Of a stretch of 64,000 nt of DNA, positions 14,403-24,120 are shown piece by piece. This DNA comes from Acidobacteriota bacterium. GTDB taxonomy: Bacteria; Acidobacteriota; Terriglobia; Bryobacterales; Bryobacteraceae. The position numbers and the translations under genes are program-made. Location: positions 1 through 64,000 of the forward strand of contig JACQZR010000221.1 of the NCBI GenBank assembly GCA_016213775.1, read 5' to 3'. The first letter of the stretch is position 1. Each line of letters starts with the position of its first letter. Under the pieces are notes generated by a model. It had not been told where the DNA came from and made no database searches. It worked only from the letters and a program-made list of their open reading frames with translations.

Positions 14403-16802
14403 TTACAACTGCCTGCGGATGGCCTCATCCTTAATGTGCGAATCATTCACGAGCAGAAGAGCTTTGCTGAGGATCAAAGCGAGGATCCGGTCGCCTTCAA
14501 AGGGCAACCAAAGGCGTTCGGCGGAATCGCCCGCGCCTTGAACGATACAAATGTAGCGGCTGCCGGGTTCGAGAATCACGTTAGCGCTCCCGAGGTGGAT
14601 GCGGTACGTGTGCAGGCGGCCTCGGACGATCAGGTGCCGTCCTTCGATGTGGCAGTGGTCGCGGAGGGCGAGTTTCGGCAGTAGGCTTTCGAGAATGGAT
14701 TTCCGGTTCTGGGCCGATTCGCTCAATTCGGCGAAGCCGAACTCGCGCCAGTAATCGATATGCGGATCGGCGGGCCGGTCCTGGCCCCAGAGGGCATCGG
14801 CGCCGATGCTGGCGACTGAGGCAAAAAGGTCGACGTCGCGCATGACTTCAGAGAAAACAACCGGCGGAACGTCCTCCAGGCGTACGGTGGCCGGCCGCCC
14901 GCCGAAGAAGACCGCATTGGGGTCTTCCCGTTCCCCAGCCCGCCGGAAGCAGATCTTGCCGGTGCCGGCGGTGAGATAAACTCCGTGCCCGGACACGTCG
15001 TCTTCATTCCGTGGAAACTCCACCTCCAATTCTGCCTTCAATTGATAGTCTGGCAGCGTCAGTTGCGGCGTATTGTGGGAATCCCACTTACCCATAAGAG
15101 TGAATTGCCACCCACGCTCTTTGCACAAGGCTGCAAACTGATGCTGCCGCAAGATATGGCCGGCAAAGCGCAGGGAGTAAGTGGCGGTCTGTCTTTCGGC
15201 TTCTGTGAGCAGGTAGACTTCGCGATGGGCCTGCTGAAACGGTTGAACCTCGGCGTGATCCTCGATCCAGCAGCGCCAACTGAGGACGGTTTGGACGGAG
15301 GCGCGAACCGGATGCCAGAGACGCACCATCGCGCCGTCGGACGAAGCAACCGGGTTGCCCGCCCAATCGACGAGCGCGCCGTCGTGCCAGATGGCGGTGT
15401 GGGAATGGCGGCCCTCGCCAAACTCCCAGATCAGGCGACGAGTGAAGGCTTGGGCTACCGGATGGTCCAAATACCATTCGCGCCATCGGGGATAGGCGGT
15501 TACCCCTGGAGATAACAGCATCCTCTCCATGCGGATGCGCATCGCCGACAGCAGGGCATCCAGTTCTTTGGCCGTCCTCTTCAGTCCGTTGATCTCCGCG
15601 GCATGGGCGCTTTTGAGTGCCGCGGGGATGCTCTTCAGCGGTTGGCTGTTGCTGGTCCATGTGAGCCGGGCTTCGCCGCTCTTCACCGCGAGTTCGGCTA
15701 CGCAATCGCCCACCGTCTCACGGCGTACCCCGTTCGCATCGAGGCCGAACGCAGGTACCGACATTGCTTCGAGGTCCTCGCGGCTGACGTGATTGCGCGC
15801 CGCTGCTTCGCAAAGCGCCTTCTCAATCAAGCGGCGCGCGACATCGTACCTGACGCGGGCGGCGAGGCGGCTCAACTGCGCAACAGCATCGAGTCCGGGC
15901 ATCACCGAGAGAGCATTGAGGCAGGCGTTTCCGACACGATGCGACACCGCGCCGAGCATGGGGATTTTGCGAAAGCAGGCGAAGGCGTAGTCAGCCAGAT
16001 CCGGCGACAGTGACGCGTCCCCCACGGCGCCGATGGTCCAGATGAAACCTTTTTGAATGGCGGCCTCGTCCTCTGGCATCTGGACTTGCGGCATATCGGG
16101 CATGGGGCCGATGGCAAGCCAGCGGTGCGAGGTCTGGACAAACTCTTCGCGCGGGATCTGCCCGGCGATGCGCACCGCCTCGGCGATCCACTTATTTGAG
16201 GCGGTGCTTTGGGTCAAGGATCGGGCGTGTTGAAATAACGCGCGCCAGGCAAAATGGTTTGGGCCGCGTGCGGCGTCCTGAAAGACGCGGCGCGACCATG
16301 CGCCGGCAGCCTCGATCGGCGAGTCGGCCGCGAAGCCGCGGGCCCGGCCTTGCACCAGGGCGTCGATCCGGTTGTGCAGTTCGCGCATCTGCGGTCCGCC
16401 GTGCCATTCATCAATGGAGGCGCGCAGTGCGAGCAGTGCATCTGTGAGCGCTTGAGTCCGCGGCGCCTGTTCGACGGCGGAGAGCAGGGCTTTGTGCGGG
16501 AACTCCACGCGGGGCTTTTGGCACATGTCGACGAGGCGGATAGCTTCAATGGTGTTCAATTCGATGCCGCCGCGGAGAAGCGCGCCGGACATTCCTCGCA
16601 GGATCAGTTTGAGTGCATAGGAATCGCAGTCCGGGAGCGCCGTCAGGGCCTGGTAGAGAAAAGCGAGTTGTTCTTCCGATGGCGCGGCCCGCAGGCTCTG
16701 CAGTTGGGTAGTGACAAGTTGCATGGCCTCCCGCTCAGTGAACACCATGTGCGCCGATTGGGCCGCGTACTGCACCTGACGCATTGCTTCCTGCGCGTCC
16801 AT
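14403..16802 (-). CDS. DUF4132 (MolR/YehI-type) protein
   Basis: A 799-residue cytoplasmic protein without signal or membrane segments. The N-terminal about 450 residues are helical and repeat-like. The C-terminal half carries the DUF4132 block (HPVAQAFTRRLIWEF, then REVYLLTEAERQTATYSLRFAGHILRQHQFAALCKERGW). It ends with the C-terminal domain typical of this family (VRGRLHTYRIHLGSANVILEPG, FEGDRILALILSKALLLVNDSHIKDEAIRRQL). The family includes E. coli MolR and YehI, whose biochemistry is not settled; many members also carry WGR domains, absent here. It starts 8 bp after the stop of a MoaD/ubiquitin-like protein ending in Gly-Gly, so the two are almost certainly co-translated. This suggests a modifier or sulfur-carrier partner, which is an inference. 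Confidence 0.7.
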   Translation of the reverse strand: MDAQEAMRQVQYAAQSAHMVFTEREAMQLVTTQLQSLRAAPSEEQLAFLYQALTALPDCDSYALKLILRGMSGALLRGGIELNTIEAIRLVDMCQKPRVEFPHKALLSAVEQAPRTQALTDALLALRASIDEWHGGPQMRELHNRIDALVQGRARGFAADSPIEAAGAWSRRVFQDAARGPNHFAWRALFQHARSLTQSTASNKWIAEAVRIAGQIPREEFVQTSHRWLAIGPMPDMPQVQMPEDEAAIQKGFIWTIGAVGDASLSPDLADYAFACFRKIPMLGAVSHRVGNACLNALSVMPGLDAVAQLSRLAARVRYDVARRLIEKALCEAAARNHVSREDLEAMSVPAFGLDANGVRRETVGDCVAELAVKSGEARLTWTSNSQPLKSIPAALKSAHAAEINGLKRTAKELDALLSAMRIRMERMLLSPGVTAYPRWREWYLDHPVAQAFTRRLIWEFGEGRHSHTAIWHDGALVDWAGNPVASSDGAMVRLWHPVRASVQTVLSWRCWIEDHAEVQPFQQAHREVYLLTEAERQTATYSLRFAGHILRQHQFAALCKERGWQFTLMGKWDSHNTPQLTLPDYQLKAELEVEFPRNEDDVSGHGVYLTAGTGKICFRRAGEREDPNAVFFGGRPATVRLEDVPPVVFSEVMRDVDLFASVASIGADALWGQDRPADPHIDYWREFGFAELSESAQNRKSILESLLPKLALRDHCHIEGRHLIVRGRLHTYRIHLGSANVILEPGSRYICIVQGAGDSAERLWLPFEGDRILALILSKALLLVNDSHIKDEAIRRQL

Positions 16803-16810
16803 TGCCGTCC

Positions 16811-17188
16811 TCAGCCTCCCACCAACGGAACCAGTTTGAGGAACTCCACCGCGGCCCGGTCGTGCAGTTCCAGGTCGGCGTCGAGGTCTGTCACCTGCCG
16901 GCCATCCACCAGCACAAGGAAGCCGTTGTTCTCAAAACTGGAGCAGGCTCTGCGAAACTGCGCTTCCCAATCGAGATGGCGGCGGGTGCGCAGGCGGAAG
17001 CCGTTGAGGATGGCCTCGGATTCTTCCGGTTGCACCAGGCCGTGGAAGACTTCGGGCAGGGCGACGTTGTAGCGATCCACTTCATCCTTGACGCGAGCGC
17101 GGATGAGGTGGCGAAGGGTGGTGGGTCCCTCGCCGATGAGCAGCGATTGCGGACTGGATGTGGTGTCCAGAATCTGGATAGCCGGCAT
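16811..17188 (-). CDS. Small beta-grasp (MoaD/ubiquitin-like) protein ending in Gly-Gly
   Basis: A 125-residue protein that I do not recognise as a named family. Its C-terminus, NGFLVLVDGRQVTDLDADLEL then HDRAAVEFLKLVPLVGG, matches the last strands of MoaD/ThiS proteins: a beta strand, a GRxV turn, D-x-x-L, a D/R-AVEF strand, L-x-P-L-V-G-G, with the two glycines as the final residues. The N-terminus (MPAIQILDTTSSPQSLLIGEGPTTLRHLI) fits the first beta hairpin and helix of the fold. About 50 extra helical residues (RARVKDEVDRYNVALPEVFHG) are inserted between them. MoaD and ubiquitin-like proteins act through a C-terminal thiocarboxylate or isopeptide bond after adenylation by an E1-like enzyme. 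No E1, JAB protease or molybdopterin gene is adjacent; the only partner is DUF4132. Confidence 0.6.
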   Translation of the reverse strand: MPAIQILDTTSSPQSLLIGEGPTTLRHLIRARVKDEVDRYNVALPEVFHGLVQPEESEAILNGFRLRTRRHLDWEAQFRRACSSFENNGFLVLVDGRQVTDLDADLELHDRAAVEFLKLVPLVGG

Positions 17189-23397: not shown

Positions 23398-23829
23398 CTA
23401 CAGAGAGGATGACTTTGAATTCTCGGCATACCAAGCGGCGAGGAAGGCAGCCGGTGTGATCCGCTTGGTGAACTTCCACTTTGCGGGGAAGTGTCTGGTG
23501 TTGCCGGTTACAAGGAAGTCAGCTTTTGCTGCCTCCGCGCACTCCAGAAACATCGCGTCATCTGGGTCTAGGAGCTTTAGCGATAGGCCGGAGACTGGAG
23601 TGACGATAGTGCTGGCCGCGCGCAGGGCCTTCAGAAGCAGCACGGCGCGTCTTTTGTCCAACGGATAGCTCTTGCGTAGGAGCAGTTCCTGATACTCGGC
23701 CAGGATAGCCCCGGTGGAACATAATCGCACTTGGCCGGCTAGTGCCAGTTTCAGAACACGAAACGGCGGACCGTCTTCGTTCAAGTAGGCCGAGACGATG
23801 ACATTGGTGTCCAACACGACGCGGATCAT
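23398..23829 (-). CDS. PIN-domain ribonuclease toxin
   Basis: A 143-residue PIN protein of the COG1569 type. The first acidic residue is in MIRVVLDTNVIVSAYLNEDG, the Glu in GAILAEYQELL, and the third and fourth acidic residues in KLLDPDDAMFLECAEAAKAD followed by FLVTGNTRHFP. All positions expected for metal binding are present, so it is probably an active RNase. It lies 18 bp after the Phd/YefM-type antitoxin gene, and the two form a type II toxin-antitoxin operon. Confidence 0.88.
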   Translation of the reverse strand: MIRVVLDTNVIVSAYLNEDGPPFRVLKLALAGQVRLCSTGAILAEYQELLLRKSYPLDKRRAVLLLKALRAASTIVTPVSGLSLKLLDPDDAMFLECAEAAKADFLVTGNTRHFPAKWKFTKRITPAAFLAAWYAENSKSSSL

Positions 23830-23847
23830 TTGAGCGTGAAGGCGGCT

Positions 23848-24120
23848 TTACTTTTTGCGCTCGCGCCTGGCAGCGGCAATCTCGGCATCAATCTGCCGCA
23901 TGGTTAGCTTGTTTAAGCCTTTTTGTTTGGCCTCCGCACCGATGGCTTTGAGCCACTCCGGCGTAGGCGCAAAGGTGTCGATGTAGTCGTTTATGCCCAT
24001 GATGACCGCCTGCGGCTGGCCGCGGCGGTCCACCACGAAGCGTTCGTTTTTTTGGTTGATGCGCTTTAGGATCTGCCCAAGCTGGGTGCGGGCAGTGACA
24101 GCGGAGATAACGTTGGTCAT
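23848..24120 (-). CDS. Phd/YefM-family antitoxin
   Basis: A 90-residue protein with the Phd/YefM DNA-binding head (NVISAVTARTQLGQILKRIN, FVVDRRGQPQAVIMGINDY) and a charged C-terminal tail (DAEIAAARRERKK) that would wrap and inhibit the PIN toxin. The start at 24120 has no good ribosome-binding site at normal spacing; a GGAGG lies about 25 bases upstream beside the palindromic operator. It is the first gene of the pair, as is usual for autoregulated systems. Confidence 0.87.
   Translation of the reverse strand: MTNVISAVTARTQLGQILKRINQKNERFVVDRRGQPQAVIMGINDYIDTFAPTPEWLKAIGAEAKQKGLNKLTMRQIDAEIAAARRERKK

Follow-up and report, generated by a model that had tools for sequence, protein, structure and literature searches.

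A ubiquitin/MoaD-like protein with a Gly-Gly end, encoded beside a DUF4132-DUF7737 protein, suggests a bacterial pathway of the ubiquitin-like kind that has yet to be characterised

Does a small protein with a Gly-Gly end, encoded directly ahead of a DUF4132 gene in an Acidobacteriota bacterium, belong to a modifier or sulfur-carrier system, and could DUF4132 be the enzyme or target that acts on its tail? This was proposed in a preliminary description of the window, by which we mean the whole 64,000-nucleotide stretch of DNA analysed. The gene of the ubiquitin/MoaD-like protein (hereafter Ubl) starts with ATG, and its product has the C-terminal sequence ...DRAAVEFLKLVPLVGG-stop (also written AVEFLKLVPLVGG), with LKLVPLVGG as the last residues. 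Plus-strand ORFs overlap the same bases; the minus frame is taken as real because homologues in other genomes support it. The length of 125 residues and the Gly-Gly end had been described correctly, and the strand, which had not been given, is minus. The DUF4132 gene does lie 8 bp away as described, but it is not the only neighbour, a gene for a multihaem c-type cytochrome following 36 bp past it on the same strand.

Table 1 Features of the Ubl-DUF4132 locus, in positions of the window.
Feature	Position	Strand	Basis
Ubiquitin/MoaD-like protein (Ubl), 125 aa, Gly-Gly end	16811..17188	minus	sequence, predicted fold, homologues
C-terminal tail LVPLVGG, residues 119-125, conserved	16814..16834	minus	clade A ends, alignments
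Intergenic gap Ubl/DUF4132, 8 bp	16803..16810	minus	ORF coordinates
DUF4132 protein, 799 aa (helical N-terminal part, DUF4132, DUF7737)	14403..16802	minus	Pfam, model
Helical N-terminal region, residues 1-347, HEAT/ARM-like in model	15762..16802	minus	low confidence before ~residue 110; matches only common helical repeats
DUF4132 domain PF13569, residues 388-565	15108..15641	minus	Pfam
DUF7737 domain PF24879, residues 697-799	14406..14714	minus	Pfam; marks Ubl-linked DUF4132 proteins

The cytochrome contains ten CxxCH motifs (counted by eye) and matches Paired_CXXCH and cytochrome c3/c7 in Pfam; the segment 11461-14366 (minus) also includes the next gene, which encodes a predicted outer-membrane barrel (a weak match). 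Cytochrome and barrel possibly form an electron conduit, and their genes are possibly co-transcribed with DUF4132. A PIN-domain gene with a Phd/YefM-type antitoxin gene is located at 23401-24120 (minus). No E2 or JAB was found among the window neighbours scanned with Pfam, and the statement that the window holds no E1 also stands: the two ThiF-family genes of the genome, one with a rhodanese domain, are both on other contigs.

Neither Pfam nor NCBIfam returned a match to the window Ubl at E <= 1, the curated MoaD/ThiS family models of these two collections included; its profile found no match among PDB sequences. It was present in its own genome only among 12 genomes of the genus, and matched at E <= 0.01 in 5 of 396 genomes of the phylum, its own included, two of these matches (L005, L006) being weak. 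A phage origin was rejected: phage records yielded no match, and a search of viral contigs with one pattern confirmed none. A known defence system was likewise rejected, the scanned Ubl and DUF4132 proteins having no PADLOC match.

AlphaFold2, given 13 aligned sequences, modelled the structure of the window Ubl (mean pLDDT 72.3, pTM 0.64). The model runs strand 3-8, strand 14-17, helix 25-42, an insert, and strands 90-94, 97-99 and 113-118, which is the beta-grasp order. The "unusual helical insert" reported previously is present between helix 1 and strand 3, but only one helix (74-86) is modelled there, and residues 47-65 have low confidence (pLDDT < 50). The best 50 Foldseek rows consisted largely of ubiquitin and SUMO chains, plus one MoaD (6jbz_B) and a few others; the lowest E value was 0.008 (probability 1.00), and none was below 0.001 among the matches listed. 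VIA-align placed a chain of the U11 snRNP complex at the top (8y6o_X, Z 9.6) and aligned human MoaD (5mpo_B) over 77 residues (Z 8.8, 2.7 A), while Pyrococcus furiosus MoaD (1vjk, Z 7.7, 24% identity), Urm1 (7q5n, Z 7.6) and SAMP1 (4hro, Z 7.5) scored below 8, where Z may reflect merely a common arrangement. The window Ubl is predicted to fold like MoaD, SAMP1, Urm1 and ubiquitin, and the beta-grasp fold expected for it is supported at the level of prediction. For a Deinococcus relative, MoaD-like structures including 5MPO, 3PO0, 1VJK and 6JBZ had been found independently, according to the accessible text of PMC9650054.

Relatives of the Ubl were found beside DUF4132-DUF7737 proteins in five phyla. 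Pairs occur in L007 of the window's own phylum, in a Dokdonia MAG of the Bacteroidota (L002, best segment 49% identical) and further genomes of that phylum, in Nonomuraea (L012, Actinomycetota), on a Novosphingobium plasmid (L013, Alphaproteobacteria) and on Deinococcus plasmids (L041). Profile searches with eight relatives matched 12/276, 24/213, 11/149 and 1/114 genomes (centres included, groups overlapping). MoaD/ThiS models matched none of the eight Ubls scanned with Pfam or the seven scanned with NCBIfam; one of them (L028) gave weak, unrelated matches.

A midpoint-rooted tree of 64 Ubls, some on long branches and with the frameshifted Ubl of L140 excluded by hand, separated two sets of 32 with support 100/100. 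The L013 branch is very long, and the joining of the Deinococcus members to L060 may be a long-branch effect. The clade A profile detects eleven clade B members (2e-6 to 1e-12 per genome), which shows that both clades share a common origin. In clade A, to which the window belongs, 31 of 32 members including the window Ubl end in Gly-Gly, the exception being L112 (LVGV); in the frameshifted L140 gene the next frame reads ..SFIKLTPLVGG. Conservation rules out a chance origin of this end, as Gly-Gly terminates only 1 of the 168 ORFs with 150 aa or more that were counted in 16 stretches (the window included). Clade B has a second tail type: 28/32 members extend 1-3 residues past a conserved Gly (FLxG or similar), 24 end in Trp, and the four with a Gly-Gly end (LAGG) are all from Deinococcus. 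Homologues next to DUF4132 that lack the terminal Gly-Gly, named at the outset as an observation against the proposal, therefore exist in clade B (28/32) and are not the pattern of the window's clade A (31/32 with Gly-Gly), and a Gly-Gly tail is not a rule of the Ubl family as a whole.

The coupling to DUF4132 was borne out across phyla, since 51/64 Ubls (26/32 in clade A, 25/32 in clade B) have a same-strand DUF4132 gene in the fetched stretch. This gene starts within 250 bp past the Ubl in 23/32 and 17/32, respectively. Where found, the DUF4132 partners in clade A are 612-875 aa long (longest ORF) and those in clade B have 1626-1760 aa, apart from three cut or split ones; the two clade B partners scanned with Pfam (L008, L041) are DUF5724-DUF4132-DUF7737 proteins. 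The order is reversed, with the Ubl behind DUF4132, in L021, L142 and L143 of clade B, and in three further clade B members DUF4132 is annotated directly downstream and cut by the stretch end. No intact DUF4132 was found in the fetched stretches of six clade A Ubls (L111, L114, L117, L122, L123, L124) or of L127, L130, L133 and L057 (with DUF4132 remnants) in clade B. Three genomes with such solo Ubls (G1107, G1194, G1157) have a second Ubl with DUF4132. The solo Gly-Gly Ubls of L123 (9834-11324) and L124 (2778-4356), from two closely related genomes, share the same neighbour, identified by Pfam in L123 as a DAHP synthase-chorismate mutase. Tandem arrays were observed in L107 (4396-12829; one Ubl, three DUF4132 genes) and L118 (3915-13247; two Ubls, three DUF4132 genes). 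Pairs in L026, L028, L029 and L013 lie near integrase- or transposase-like genes (by eye) or on a plasmid, which suggests that these pairs are mobile.

The window DUF4132 protein matched PF13569 with 156 bits (curated cut-off 27). In its model (pLDDT 77.7, pTM 0.59) one half is helical and the other, C-terminal one is mixed. The structural matches were to helical repeats only, mostly designed or HEAT/ARM-type (Foldseek E 0.0045 at best, Z up to 8.9); this comparison barely covered the C-terminal half, for which we claim no new fold. Against PDB sequences the protein itself gave no match, and the DUF4132 profile returned a single hit of no significance (E 1.8). Residues shared by 20 or more of 23 aligned DUF4132 proteins include P393, K397, H447, H497, Q524, R527, E528, E536, R545, S651, E652, R655 and D656. 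No cysteine is among the positions so conserved, which makes a thioester E2/E3 role unlikely, and from the alignment these residues would fit a binding or catalytic site of the non-thioester kind.

The proposed survey of DUF4132 neighbourhoods was carried out starting from DUF4132. Across 392 + 395 genomes, 30 places scored over the cut-off, four of them previously known, and the stretches of all 30 were retrieved; a 31st match below the cut-off was dropped. A Ubl was adjacent or near at 14 of them (3/19 in the window's own phylum, 11/11 in the other phylum), but 16 had none despite at least 1.5 kb of upstream sequence at each, and the Ubl as a partner of every DUF4132 was rejected. A strong match to DUF7737 separated the two groups, being present at 14/14 Ubl-linked places and 0/16 others, counts that are given without a probability as the loci are not independent by descent; the local profile was built from five proteins, two of which belong to the 14 that it marked. 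Among the Ubl-less places only L038, a broken gene, had a weak match (E 8e-6). By Pfam, PF24879 is present in the window protein, L008, L041, L042 and L043 and absent from L031, L033, L034, L035, L039 and YehI. L042 and L043 have no neighbouring Ubl.

Four relatives have a ThiF-family gene that overlaps the DUF4132 stop or begins at most 3 bp past it (L002, L028, L113, L140). This corresponds to 4/32 clade A loci (31 tree loci plus L140, which was assigned to clade A by profile score, 100 bits) and to 0/32 in clade B, of which three loci break off before DUF4132 ends; contig ends truncate other stretches. That the window has no E1 is therefore a local feature, since these four relatives carry one directly behind DUF4132. 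Aligned with Escherichia coli MoeB and ThiF, the four linked E1s keep the GxGGLG, NLxRQ and TDN motifs and a cysteine aligned with that in "NCRTAGV" of ThiF, which we take to be Cys184; the L113 gene is broken after this cysteine. The first of the two CxxC pairs, presumably the zinc site, is absent in 4/4 and the second in three, L113 being broken before it. The linked E1s fall into two supported pairs in a tree of E1s rather than one group, with L002 on a long branch. Two of them match the E1 part of PADLOC E1-E2 models. Pfam scans of nine neighbours of the four loci found no E2 or JAB; two of the nine are nuclease-like (PDDEXK YhcG, Uma2). An E1-type protein in L071 (4010-5458) has an N-terminal extension that resembles a fused MoaD-type domain by eye.

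In the known carrier systems MoaE uses MoaD and ThiG uses ThiS. The Ubl resembles the MoaD/ThiS carriers, which work with MoeB/ThiF and MoaE/ThiG, in its predicted beta-grasp fold, its free Gly-Gly end and, at four loci, a ThiF/MoeB-family E1, but it differs in lacking a curated-model match and in the long insert that separates helix 1 from strand 3; the partner here is a DUF4132-DUF7737 protein, and the linked E1s lack CxxC pairs. WGR-DUF4132 and HEAT-DUF4132 proteins and E. coli YehI share the DUF4132 domain with the window protein, whereas the six scanned with Pfam lack DUF7737 and no Ubl occurs in their stretches; at the yehI locus none is annotated or was seen. Bacterial operons for ubiquitin-like conjugation include those named Bil and Bub. 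Together with CBASS and types 6a-6e (Iyer 2006), these operons share the combination of a Ubl and an E1 with our four loci, where a large DUF4132 protein is found instead of the E2 or JAB that the nine scanned neighbours lacked. MolR and HEAT do not occur in the accessible text of Iyer 2006 (PMC1779556).

One member of the family has been studied experimentally. The Ubl of L041 ends in LTALAGG and is followed by a DUF5724-DUF4132-DUF7737 protein; from gene order (thioredoxin before, DUF4132 after) it is DR_A0165 (SEP068184) of Deinococcus radiodurans. DR_A0165 was published as a MoaD-like prediction (PMC9650054) and, with DR_A0166, represents the same Ubl family as the window pair but in the sister clade B, with a long partner that contains DUF5724. 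In the portions of PMC8533742 available, drA0165-drA0166 is strongly upregulated upon DdrO depletion, moeA and moeB are not differentially expressed under that depletion, the DRA0166 protein increases with mitomycin C in the wild type but not without IrrE, and the naming of the DUF4132 family ties it to MolR. The corresponding portions of PMC9650054 report that deletion of DR_A0165 gives a higher antioxidant capacity, that DR_A0165 binds Trx1, that 157 proteins co-purified with both N- and C-tagged DR_A0165 in D. radiodurans, and, according to its authors, that the protein is found in Deinococcus only. The C-tagged form still pulls down the same 157 proteins, so a free C-terminus is unnecessary for those contacts. 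As far as their accessible texts go, the two sources conflict over a radiation/desiccation response motif: one is listed upstream of DRA0165 in PMC8533742, and an RDRM upstream of DR_A0165 was not found in PMC9650054. We found no discussion of DR_A0166 as a partner of DR_A0165 in the available text of PMC9650054. In the literature searched, three papers name DUF4132 and none names DUF5724 or DUF7737. Among the matches listed in that search, which did not extend to preprints or to the majority of subscription papers, we found neither the pairing of Ubl and DUF4132 nor the two types of tail nor the link to an E1.

The explanation that we rank first, with about an even chance of being right, is that an E1 can activate the Ubl and that DUF4132-DUF7737 makes use of the Ubl tail. 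The Ubl would be made as a beta-grasp protein with a free Gly-Gly end, the end being read from the sequence and the fold predicted. A ThiF/MoeB-family E1 would adenylate this end; the linkage of the genes is observed and the activation conjectural. The activating E1 in some relatives would be the small one encoded right behind DUF4132; the organism of the window may use one of the two ThiF-family proteins of its genome, of which one is a ThiF-rhodanese fusion. The tail, as a thiocarboxylate or bare, may then insert into DUF4132-DUF7737, which by analogy with MoaE-MoaD and ThiG-ThiS would use the Ubl as a sulfur or acyl donor or as an activating subunit. The capped tail of clade B may serve for docking only, or may first be clipped to a single glycine. 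We favour this explanation because of the beta-grasp model, the Gly-Gly end in 31/32 clade A members, the four E1-linked loci and the DUF7737 distribution (14/14 versus 0/16). It is weakened because an E1 accompanies just 4/32 clade A and 0/32 clade B loci and the four E1s are not one group, because 28/32 clade B members lack Gly-Gly and most of them lie beside DUF4132, because six clade A and four clade B Ubls have no intact DUF4132 in their stretch, and because L042 and L043 carry DUF7737 without a Ubl and 157 proteins co-purified with the C-tagged Ubl as well as the N-tagged one (PMC9650054, accessible text). The preliminary proposal is borne out in part, by the predicted fold, the tail of clade A and the coupling across phyla; DUF4132 as the enzyme or target that acts on the tail is putative, as is any active site or pocket in it.

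A bolder version, which we consider improbable, would make DUF4132-DUF7737 the receptor or effector enzyme of an unrecognised, DNA-damage-induced Ubl pathway, with charging of the Ubl by a small E1 lacking the zinc cysteines, transfer of its C-terminus to DUF4132-DUF7737 without an E2, and a capped clade B precursor (FLAG-SYW and the like) clipped on demand. Ufm1 is comparable, its precursor being capped and having a single glycine.

The Ubl may conjugate, may carry sulfur or may only dock. Ranked second, and in our judgement doubtful though a real possibility, is a stable regulatory subunit of DUF4132-DUF7737 comparable to YukD or TmoB, with the tail as a docking peptide, no E1 chemistry, and the four E1s as later recruits. 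Such a non-covalent role would agree with a pairing kept in clade B, where the tail is mostly G plus 1-3 residues and 24/32 end in Trp, with the absence of an E1 from most loci, and with the 157 proteins brought down alike by the C-tagged Deinococcus Ubl (PMC9650054, available portions); it leaves unexplained the free Gly-Gly in 31/32 clade A members, the coupling of E1s to clade A loci and the solo Ubls.

We regard as unlikely, and rank third, that the Gly-Gly Ubl is a protein modifier placed on lysines of other proteins or of DUF4132 in a DNA-damage response, with DUF4132 as target or E2-free ligase. The absence of E2 and JAB from the nine neighbours scanned at the four E1 loci, the lack of cysteine among the most conserved DUF4132 positions and the protease that clade B tails would require argue against conjugation, to which the free Gly-Gly, the E1 in four operons and the DNA-damage regulation of the family's Deinococcus operon (PMC8533742, accessible text) would otherwise lend themselves. 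Least probable, and to us hardly credible, is a divergent MoaD/ThiS paralogue for molybdenum cofactor or thiamine, whose place near DUF4132 would be fortuitous or reflect molybdate control of the MolR type: MoaD ranks among the nearest folds and the DUF4132 family is tied to MolR by name, but the Ubls scanned (eight with Pfam, seven with NCBIfam) match no MoaD/ThiS model, 51/64 have a same-strand DUF4132 in their stretch, and moeA and moeB did not respond to DdrO depletion (both Deinococcus and naming data from the available portions of PMC8533742).

The Ubl-DUF4132 pair thus hints at a pathway of the ubiquitin-like kind in bacteria. DUF4132 proteins are common to many bacteria and their biochemistry is uncharacterised; a Ubl partner, the DUF7737 domain and, in some operons, an E1 make the family a testable system. 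The published Deinococcus data can also be re-read in this light, since DR_A0165, with its antioxidant phenotype and its DNA-damage-inducible DUF4132 partner, belongs to this Ubl family.
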